Shown here: piece after piece, positions 1 to 32,740 of the stretch
Layout: each line of letters begins with the position of its first letter
Numbering within the stretch: the first letter of the stretch is position 1
Assembly: GCA_017620335.1 (NCBI GenBank)
Contig: JAFZQO010000026.1
Span: forward strand, 1-64,000
From: Bacteroidales bacterium
GTDB taxonomy: Bacteria; Bacteroidota; Bacteroidia; Bacteroidales; UBA932
Length of the DNA: 64,000 bases
Reading direction: 5' to 3'
Program-made: the position numbers and the translations under genes
Notes under the pieces: model-generated
The model's database searches: none
What the model was told of the DNA's origin: nothing
What the model saw: the letters and a program-made list of their open reading frames with translations, nothing else

Positions 1-12
1 CTTGTTAAATCG

Positions 13-32
13 TGCCCCAATAATGCCCCAAT
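13..32. repeat. Tandem 9-bp direct repeat (TGCCCCAAT x2)
   Basis: TGCCCCAAT occurs at 13-21 and 24-32, a period of 11 bp (about one helical turn). It lies in the untranslated leader of a leftward transcript that starts near position 55, so it could be a protein-binding site or leader element of the gene beyond the window edge. Its function is unknown. Confidence 0.4.
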
Positions 33-30067: not shown

Positions 30068-32740
30068 ATGGAGAACAAAGTGAATGCTATTTTCGAGGGG
30101 CTGAACAGTGAGCAGAGGAAAGCTGTCGCCTGTGTGGAGGGACCGGTGCTGATAGTCGCAGGTGCAGGTTCGGGGAAGACGAGGGTGTTGACGTGCAGGA
30201 TAGCGAATATCCTGGACCACGGATGCGATCCGGAGAGGATCATGGCCCTGACATTCACCAAAAAGGCCGCCGGCGAGATGAAGGAACGCATCGCCGCGAT
30301 GGTGGGGGAGCGCCGGGCGCGCAGGCTTGTCATGGGCACTTTCCACTCCATATTCATCCGCTTCCTGAGGGAGTACTCTGGCCTTCTGGGATATCCTTCC
30401 GCCTTCACCATCTACGACGCCTCGGATTCAGTGAGCGCCGTCAAGGCGTGCATCAAGGACCTGGGTCTCGACGACAAGGTCTACAAGCCGCGCGAGGTCC
30501 TGGCGCGCATTTCGATGGCCAAGAACAACCTCGTGACGGCGGAGGCGTACCGCGCCAATCCCACGCTGGTGATGAACGACACCCATGCGAAGAAGCCGAA
30601 GATATGCGACATCTTCACCATGTATGCGCAGAGGTGCAAGGCTTCGGGCGTGATGGACTTCGACGACATCCTCCTGAACATGAACATCCTGCTCAGGGAC
30701 AGCAGGGAAGCCCTTGAGGACATCGCCTCCCGTTTCTCGTACATCCTCGTCGACGAATACCAGGACACGAACATGGCCCAGTATCTGATTCTGAACCGCC
30801 TGGCGCAGTTCCACCGCAACATCTGCGTCGTGGGCGACGATTCCCAGTCCATCTACGCCTTCCGCGGGGCCAGGATCGAGAACATCCTGAGTTTCAGGAA
30901 GGATTATCCTGAGTGCAAGGTGTTCAGGCTGGAGCGCAACTACCGGTCCACCAAGGTCATCGTGGAAGCGGCCAATTCACTGATTTCCAAGAATGAGAAC
31001 CGCATCCCGAAGGAGTGCTATGCCGTCGGGGAGGACGGGGAGAAGATACGCCTGATCCGCTCCTATACGGAGCAGGAGGAGGCCGTGCTGATCACCAGCG
31101 CGATAATGGACAGGATGCGCGAGGAAAGGGCCGAATACCAGGACTTCGCCATACTGTACAGGACCAATTCCCAGTCCCGCGCGCTCGAGGAGGCGCTGCG
31201 CAGGCGCAATATCCCCTACATGATCTATTCCGGCAATTCCTTCTTCGAGAGGGCCGAGATAAAGGACATGATGGCTTACTTCAAGCTGGTGGTGAACCCC
31301 AACGACGACGAGTCGTTCAAGCGGGCGGTGAACAAGCCGCCGCGCGGGATAGGGGACACCTCGATGGAGGCGCTTGGGGCCGCGGCGAGGGCGCACGGTG
31401 TTTCGCTCTTCAGGGCGGCGTACGCGCCGGACCTTCTGGAACACGGCTTAAGGAACGCGGCCATAGTGAAGATAAGGGCGTTCTGCGACATGATCGGAGC
31501 CCTGGCTTCCAGGGCCATGACCATGGATGCGCTGGACCTGGCGCGCAAGGTCGCGGACGACTCGGGCCTGTACGCTTATTTCAAGGCGGACACCTCGGTC
31601 GAGGGTATGTCGCGCACCTCCAACGTCGAGGAGCTGGTGAACAGTGTCGCGCAGTTCGTCGAGGACCGTCACGCCGAATTCTTCGCCGAATTGGAGGCGG
31701 CGACATCTGTCGGGGGCACTGCCCTCGGAAACCGTGCCACCCTCGGCATCGTAACCGACGATGCTGGTGAGAGAAGAGGAACCTTGGTTTCTCTTCCGAA
31801 GCGCGAGGAGGAAAAAGGCGGAACGTCTTTAACAGGGGGGGACCCAAGCTTGCTTGGGGGGGGTCCTGCGAAGCAGGACGTTTCAGAGGGCAGTGCCCCC
31901 GACGACGAGCCGCCGGTAGTGACGCTCGGGGAGTTCCTGGAAAACATTTCGCTGCTGAGCAGCGTGGACGTGGTGACCGAGGAGGACACCAACAACAAGG
32001 TCGCGCTGATGACCGCGCATTCGGCAAAGGGCCTCGAATTCCCTTATGTTTATATAGCCGGCATGGAGGAGAACCTCTTCCCATCCGGCGGCATGCTCGC
32101 GTCCGCGTCTGACATCGAGGAGGAGCGCCGCCTGTTCTACGTCGCCGTCACGAGGGCCAAGAAGGCCGTCGGCATATCGTTCGCGACCACTCGCATGCGA
32201 AACGGCCGCCACGAGTCAAACGCTCCCAGCCGCTTCATCCGTGAGATCAATCCGAAGTATATAGCCAATCCATTGAACGACAGGGATTTCCGCTCTGTGC
32301 AGGACGATGATGACGATGACTTCAGTGGCTTCGGTTCGCATTTCTTCGGACGGGGAGGTTCTTTCGGCAGGGCTGACTCCTACGGCAGGGGAGGCCGGGA
32401 GGCCGGGCCGCGTGGATCTTCTTACGGACGTTCTTCCGGAGTGACTTTTTTCAAACAGGAAAGGCGGCCGGCTGAAAAGCCGGCGACGGCCGCGCCTGCC
32501 AGGCATCCCGTGGTTCCCGCCGCACCTGCACCCCGCTATGACGATTCCACGTTCGTGCCTTCGCCAATGCGCGACTTCAGCATAGGCCAGCGCATCGAGC
32601 ACAACCGCTTCGGTCCGGGCCGCATCCTGGACATCACCGGAACCTTCCCGGAACTCAAGGCGAAGATAGCCTTCGACGATTACGCGGAGCCGAAGACCAT
32701 ACTTCTCAAATACGCAAAGATGCGTCCGGAGCAGAAATAA
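30068..32740 (+). CDS. uvrD: UvrD/PcrA-type DNA helicase with inserted repeat element
   Basis: 890 residues, a superfamily 1A 3'-5' helicase for repair and replication restart. Visible motifs include the Walker A segment GAGSGKTRVL, the DEYQDTN box, GDDSQSIYAFRGA, the RNYRS motif and the TAHSAKGLEFPYV motif, followed by a Gly/Arg-rich linker and a C-terminal Tudor-like domain (GQRIEHNRFGPGRI). Residues 548-612 are encoded by a 195-bp palindromic element and interrupt the 2B-region loop just before VVTLGEFL. An upstream in-frame start at 29987 overlaps the promoter, so the ATG at 30068 is chosen. Family relatives have a short acidic linker here, so the helicase probably tolerates the insert. 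Confidence 0.95.
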   Translation: MENKVNAIFEGLNSEQRKAVACVEGPVLIVAGAGSGKTRVLTCRIANILDHGCDPERIMALTFTKKAAGEMKERIAAMVGERRARRLVMGTFHSIFIRFLREYSGLLGYPSAFTIYDASDSVSAVKACIKDLGLDDKVYKPREVLARISMAKNNLVTAEAYRANPTLVMNDTHAKKPKICDIFTMYAQRCKASGVMDFDDILLNMNILLRDSREALEDIASRFSYILVDEYQDTNMAQYLILNRLAQFHRNICVVGDDSQSIYAFRGARIENILSFRKDYPECKVFRLERNYRSTKVIVEAANSLISKNENRIPKECYAVGEDGEKIRLIRSYTEQEEAVLITSAIMDRMREERAEYQDFAILYRTNSQSRALEEALRRRNIPYMIYSGNSFFERAEIKDMMAYFKLVVNPNDDESFKRAVNKPPRGIGDTSMEALGAAARAHGVSLFRAAYAPDLLEHGLRNAAIVKIRAFCDMIGALASRAMTMDALDLARKVADDSGLYAYFKADTSVEGMSRTSNVEELVNSVAQFVEDRHAEFFAELEAATSVGGTALGNRATLGIVTDDAGERRGTLVSLPKREEEKGGTSLTGGDPSLLGGGPAKQDVSEGSAPDDEPPVVTLGEFLENISLLSSVDVVTEEDTNNKVALMTAHSAKGLEFPYVYIAGMEENLFPSGGMLASASDIEEERRLFYVAVTRAKKAVGISFATTRMRNGRHESNAPSRFIREINPKYIANPLNDRDFRSVQDDDDDDFSGFGSHFFGRGGSFGRADSYGRGGREAGPRGSSYGRSSGVTFFKQERRPAEKPATAAPARHPVVPAAPAPRYDDSTFVPSPMRDFSIGQRIEHNRFGPGRILDITGTFPELKAKIAFDDYAEPKTILLKYAKMRPEQK
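31709..31903. repeat. 195-bp palindromic (MITE-like) element inside uvrD
   Basis: The ends are inverted repeats: 31709-31726 and 31886-31903 are perfect 18-bp reverse complements, extending to 23/24 matches (31709-31732 with 31880-31903). Inside lie further palindromes: 31773-31796 (10/11 bp arms, TT loop), a CCAAGC/GCTTGG-centred one (31841-31863) and TCCTGC-GAA-GCAGGA (31864-31877 region). The length is 65 codons, starting on codon 548 and ending on codon 612, with no stop. No target-site duplication is obvious. No transposase lies nearby, so it would be a non-autonomous element. Confidence 0.75.

Follow-up and report, generated by a model that had tools for sequence, protein, structure and literature searches.

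A pseudoknotted palindromic element dispersed in frame in housekeeping genes of a Bacteroidales bacterium

The uvrD locus and its insert

The window analysed here is a stretch of 64,000 nts from a Bacteroidales bacterium of the UBA932 lineage (contig JAFZQO010000026.1), and the element under study lies within its uvrD/pcrA gene (30068..32740, plus strand). The 890-aa open reading frame (ORF) is free of internal stops and encodes a PcrA/UvrD-type helicase, as identified by NCBIfam and Pfam hidden Markov model (HMM) matches. An insert of 195 nts (31709..31903) occupies 65 stop-free codons of this ORF and is bounded by arms of 24 nts each (31709-31732 and 31880-31903), which are 96% complementary. 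Hence the inverted arms of 24 bp and the 65 codons in phase, which had been described in an initial annotation of this DNA, were both confirmed. The borders of the 195 nts are not sharp, because the inverted repeat continues imperfectly outward to ~37 nts, of which 32 are identical. When folded, the segment reached a z-score of -6.7 as DNA and -6.3 as RNA relative to 200 dinucleotide shuffles, none of which equalled it in either case.

The insert interrupts a linker that is short in relatives, as the initial annotation had proposed. Eighty relatives were fetched, including rumen and gut Bacteroidales (three being Candidatus Cryptobacteroides), and 77 could be aligned after L023, L050 and L064 dropped out. 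The uvrD linker was without the element in 75 of the 77, where it measures 32-68 aa, and carried the element in two (L013 and L014), of which one has it reversed in orientation. The linker of L036 (68 aa) exceeds those of the other empty relatives and has no model match; it is perhaps a decayed copy.

Architecture of the element

A nucleotide search of the bacterium's own genome with the 195-bp query revealed further places that match only within q5-46 and q122-192. Reading of eight to eleven copies showed a conserved core of ~70 nts and outer arms that are inverted repeats differing from copy to copy, which explains these partial matches. The element is ~125 bp long (113-130 nts among the genus loci listed, n=29), with a core made of a hairpin, a pseudoknot and two further hairpins, enclosed by a stem, P1, with arms of ~25 bp. 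The 24-nt termini are thus copy-specific arms and not the ends of a family, and the 195 bp comprise one copy of the element together with 75 nts private to the window's copy.

A covariance model (R1), built from 12 copies with the window's uvrD copy left out, places the whole element at 31706..31906 on the plus strand (100.1 bits, E 4.9e-19), as its sole match in the window. On this strand, the 5′ arm of P1 (31709..31732), a copy-specific inverted repeat recognised by arm complementarity and by compensatory arms among copies, is followed by the core hairpin P2 (GTGCC/GGCAT; 31734..31749), which is conserved among copies. The loop of P2 (CCCTC; 31740-31744) is the 5′ strand of the pseudoknot, and its 3′ strand (31833..31837) was placed by sequence and alignment; the latter reads CAGGG in the uvrD copy as against GAGGG in most copies, leaving four of five pairs here. 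Hairpins P3 (CCCAAGC TT GCTTGGG; 31843..31858) and P4 (GTCCTGC GAA GCAGGAC; 31863..31879), both defined by copy alignment and covariation, precede the 3′ arm of P1 (31880..31903), assigned by arm complementarity. The private 75 nts (31755..31829) amount to 25 codons with a hairpin of their own and TAAC repeats on either side. They are absent from all other copies, and a nucleotide search found no second match anywhere in the own genome. In phase, hairpin-bearing and flanked by TAAC, this extra resembles a second insertion, made within the element.

Covariation supports the proposed structure. When 12 copies were aligned by sequence alone with MAFFT, both sides had changed in 22 of the 23 P1 pairs, and 94% of pair cells held a standard pair versus 78% in shuffles, with 0/500 shuffles as high. 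In an alignment of 60 copies, which was fitted to R1 and thus leans towards the R1 structure, both-side changes affected 23/23 pairs of P1 and 2/5 pairs of the pseudoknot, the latter being found in the versions CCCTC/GAGGG and CCCGT/ACGGG. The identity of arms is 0.72 at the same site and about 0.59 between different sites, which indicates that arms belong to the site. For P3-P4, identity was 0.84 at the same site, 0.80 within the same genome and 0.77 with neither in common (no significance test). Concerted evolution of the cores is not claimed from so weak a signal (0.80 versus 0.77).

Copies and reading frames

Dispersed copies of this common structure occupy in-frame sites in unrelated housekeeping genes. 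Covariance search with R1 identified 18 copies in the own genome (a 19th row being the reverse strand of one), most of them in other genes, and together with the empty uvrD orthologues these fit what the initial annotation had anticipated for a dispersed repeat. Thirteen copies belong to subtype A, which has the window's core, and five to subtype B. All 13 subtype-A copies lie in genes of curated families (HMM), encoding UvrD/PcrA, UvrA, DnaX, AtpG, shikimate kinase, IspE, TilS, RibF, MtaB, TruB, Fmt, TrmB and an M16 peptidase. All 13 are stop-free in the host frame, an outcome of about 1 in 1.6 million if the frame were random. Seven are oriented along the gene and six against it, and four of the six reading frames are used. 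Copies therefore do not share one phase, contrary to an earlier expectation, and because four frames on both strands are read, no common peptide exists among them.

The frame was examined more widely from the codon position at which mismatches pile up, over 210 nts on each side, in genomes G000 (the own genome), G081, G117 and G170. Of 57 copies, 37 were testable, after exclusion of 16 in which mismatches were too scarce and 4 in which periodicity was weak. The frame was kept on both sides in 34 of the 37, all 34 being open across the element, and differed across it in three, namely two B copies and one copy at a contig end. An earlier run with flanks of 520 nts was noisier because the flanks extended past gene ends.

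The two B copies are C51 of the own genome and its G170 counterpart, which lie between frames according to codon periodicity; no convincing gene was found across any of the five subtype-B copies of the own genome. B-like copies do occur in frame near the C-terminus of UvrD in L053, L054, L062 and L067, and L070 is empty there. Subtype-B copies were also seen, for two species, in one gene, recognised as recG by eye only, at L206:3931-4054 (G081) and L070:13559-13683, where the own genome (L243) is empty. G081 carries about 82 further extra bases beside the copy at L206.

Inheritance, orientation and loss

Copies are retained vertically at orthologous sites and vary in orientation at the same site. 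With a reciprocal criterion of 75-210 nts between flanks both ways, 21 same-site pairs were identified among four genomes, and the orientation is opposite in nine of them, at 6 of 11 sites. These pairs leave out the displaced copies in dnaX of G170 and in ribF and mtaB of G000, as well as the contig-end uvrD copy of G170. All of these are included in a set of 30 same-gene pairs, in which the P2-pseudoknot core has an identity of 0.95 versus 0.76 for the flanks, with unrelated orientation controls near 0.6. Judged from these comparisons, insertions in this clade are mostly old and vertically inherited. A change of orientation represents either inversion in place or re-insertion.

Elements are also lost. 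A remnant persists in the M16 gene of G081, and the element in uvrA of G170 has been lost almost completely. At first sight the latter resembled an empty site, and its left flank matches one arm of G081, which had suggested that insertion occurs as an inverted duplication of the target. This was rejected: G000 and G081 share the uvrA insertion, and G170 resembles G081 closely (about 94% in places), so that G170 represents a loss, at a TCC microhomology. A target duplication of ~100 bp was likewise rejected on realignment, which gave an overlap of about 10 bp plus 219 extra bases. A short segment of the uvrA linker at L168 (G232) is similar to the P2-pseudoknot part when this is read backwards, and may be a remnant.

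Distribution and association with Y1 transposases

The element was found in 84 of the 101 genomes sampled from the genus (42 of the 48 good ones), with 1 to 32 copies per genome among the matches listed. In the order as a whole, 5 of 295 genomes carry it, including the own genome. Searches over more than 40 genomes (R1, R2) used stricter filters and scored at most 35 candidates per genome in the 101-genome search and 12 in the 295-genome search; with so few candidates scored, copy counts and absences are approximate. Outside the genus, identical arms are shared by copies in genome G476, some of which lie next to each other as inverted pairs. These copies look recent, and insertion junctions are best sought in this genome. 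At its loci L245, L249, L253, L257, L259 and L261-L264, identical arms are accompanied by some inverted pairs and by larger composite repeats, reminiscent of bacterial interspersed mosaic elements (BIMEs).

Within the genus, the element is statistically linked to HUH transposases of the Y1 type. PF01797 (Y1_Tnp) was detected in 75 of 84 element-positive versus 3 of 17 element-negative genomes (Fisher 8e-9, uncorrected for kinship), and in 39/42 versus 0/6 of the good ones, as compared with 28/84 versus 8/17 for the control PF01609 (DDE_Tnp_1). For six Y1 proteins scanned, the best NCBIfam match was the repetitive extragenic palindromic (REP)-associated tyrosine transposase (RAYT) NF047646. The own genome contains ten RAYT-like matches, on C1, C41, C5, C13, C36, C43, C51, C52 and C54; element copies are located at a distance of 3-8 kb from those on C41, C43 and C36, a proximity that may be due to chance.

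Origin and maintenance of the element

We consider it fairly likely that these copies represent a non-autonomous palindromic element of about 125 bp, probably mobilised by an HUH enzyme, whose spread proceeds through a folded single strand and whose copies are tolerated as translated linkers. A RAYT-like transposase would recognise the folded core as single-stranded DNA and paste it elsewhere. Selection would remove gene-breaking copies, so that linker copies of frame-keeping length remain, and the insert would be translated as a linker or loop. Arm complementarity could be kept by quasipalindrome template switching during replication, or because mobility needs a paired stem, and copies would eventually be deleted, leaving remnants. 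On this reading, many housekeeping proteins in a large group of gut Bacteroidales seem to have been lengthened by the uptake of selfish DNA. The suggestion of the initial annotation that the insert is a mobile palindromic repeat selected to be translatable appears largely right, in that copies are dispersed, in frame and stop-free, with mobility read from their dispersal.

Several points weigh against this explanation. Mobilisation, read from dispersal, and translation of the insert as a linker or loop are both inferences. Neither a clean insertion junction nor a target duplication was readable, the apparent empty sites being losses, remnants or too diverged, and the core pattern had no exact match in viral contigs. 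In P1, 25 G.T cells versus 16 A.C cells give no significant strand bias (p 0.21), hence either strand could be the one that folds; the counts are compatible with self-correction of a palindrome in double-stranded DNA. Regarding the transposase, the NF047646 matches of the six Y1 proteins fall below the curated cut-off of NCBIfam, the Fisher test ignores phylogenetic non-independence, and 9 of the 84 element-positive genus genomes are without Y1. Twenty Y1 loci (±1.5 kb) showed no adjoining element, bar one weak partial match, and neither Pfam nor a profile built from ten genus proteins detected Y1 in any of the four element-bearing genomes outside the genus. Moreover, the element-negative genome G076 has weak matches to the ten-protein profile that were missed by Pfam, and G229 has one Y1 match by both Pfam and the profile.

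The element could also be a DNA site that the host has domesticated for protein binding, recombination or chromosome organisation and that is kept at fixed places in any orientation. In favour of this, copies stay at orthologous sites across four genomes, flanks are less conserved than the core, and orientation is indifferent. Such a site is unlikely, however, given that 17 of 101 genus genomes had no match and copy number ranges from 1 to 32 (both approximate), that losses and remnants occur, and that only 5/295 genomes of the order carry the element. In addition, nothing would be gained by a position within essential enzymes.

It is distinctly improbable that the element works at the RNA level, as a structured cis-regulator or ribozyme within the host mRNA. 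Strong covariation and the pseudoknot speak for it, as does the excess of wobble pairs over A.C cells in P3 (12 to 1), but strong arm covariation alone is no proof of a functional RNA. Six of the 13 subtype-A copies run antisense to their genes, copies lie mid-gene or between genes, and no Rfam family was found on the element, either at E<=1 in 11 loci or at the gathering threshold in 20 loci.

Very improbable is an intron-like or ribosome-bypassed element that never appears in protein, which could account for the location in conserved enzymes. Some host enzymes of the element are essential in model bacteria. Yet none of the 34 frame-keeping copies has a stop in the host frame, a property that would not be needed under splicing or bypassing, and both orientations occur. 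Splicing or an RNA function in the mRNA was thus rejected on orientation (6/13 antisense) and on frame (34/37 kept, all open). Finally, although the site is a length-variable linker, an ordinary lineage-specific UvrD linker that is palindromic by chance has a negligible probability, being already refuted by 18 dispersed copies of one structure and by shuffles that never fold equally well.

A bolder version of the mobile-element explanation is possible, and we advance it as tentative. The element would represent a new class of mobile element, of which the four-helix pseudoknotted core alone is fixed, the arbitrary stem is renewed by template switching, giving each copy arms of its own, and the core is flipped or exchanged in place and moved by a RAYT-like HUH enzyme. 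Such a class would have become a constant supply of fresh linkers for enzymes of repair, tRNA modification and core metabolism in a dominant gut lineage.

Comparison with known palindromic repeats

In-frame palindromic repeats in proteins have until now been known as a curiosity, from Rickettsia and from isolated REP cases. The present element provides a much larger natural experiment, in which 84 of the 101 genomes sampled from a single genus carry it, each with many copies, and in which orthologous insertions can be compared and a candidate enzyme is at hand. It makes testable how palindromes move, why they are tolerated in enzymes, often of repair and tRNA modification, and whether arm covariation arises by selection or by self-templated repair. 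A literature search, by titles and abstract starts in one paper collection, revealed no description of this element.

According to parts of two papers, palindromic elements of Rickettsia (RPEs) occur in frame within proteins (PMC10969869, PMC3733652), and each RPE encodes a conserved peptide, as stated in a section of the review PMC10969869. As far as these parts describe RPEs, the Bacteroidales element resembles them in being palindromic, about 100-150 bp long, dispersed and in frame in many unrelated genes, and truB hosts both an RPE (PMC3733652) and this element (HMM). It differs in residing in another phylum, the likeness being one of description, in having no common encoded peptide among 13 copies read in four frames, and in its arms, which are not conserved between copies. 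Hence the analogy with RPEs drawn in the initial annotation holds for dispersal, a length of ~100-150 bp, the in-frame position and a similar way of working, and stops at the conserved peptide.

Intragenic REPs were reported in replication and repair genes, including uvrA, uvrD and truB, in the part of the study concerned (Di Nocera 2013, PMC3733652), which describes REPs as 20-40 bp with GTAG or CGTC tags. The element is located similarly, in genes of replication and repair such as uvrA and uvrD, and the inverted copy pairs of G476 are a second likeness. A genome-level link to Y1 transposases may be a further one, as seen within the genus (75/84 versus 3/17) but not outside it (0/4). In contrast with REPs, the element has ~125 bp, four helices, a pseudoknot and copy-specific ends, with no conserved GTAG or CGTC end tag by inspection, and no REPtron arrangement was seen at the 20 Y1 loci, apart from the single partial match. 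Among TnpAREP transposases, a section of PMC6006769 attributes a YIxNNP motif to subclass 2.4, and several genus Y1 proteins read YIxNNP by eye. The same source describes genes of the Bacteroidetes subclass 2.6 as bordered by "atypical secondary structures" that recur at other places. The element could be related to these structures, which are known here by description alone; the Y1 genes of the genus differ from subclass 2.6, so described, in not being flanked by the element (20 loci).

As regards miniature inverted-repeat transposable elements (MITEs), the element shares with their description in a section of PMC10969869 a short length, non-autonomy and terminal inverted repeats. It differs in that arms are ~0.59 identical between sites, the G476 copies that share arms being the exception. 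No target-site duplication was readable at the apparent empty sites. The label MITE-like, given in the initial annotation, is therefore doubtful. Taken together, the element lacks the marks of REPs and MITEs and the common peptide of RPEs, yet it works in the same way as these systems.
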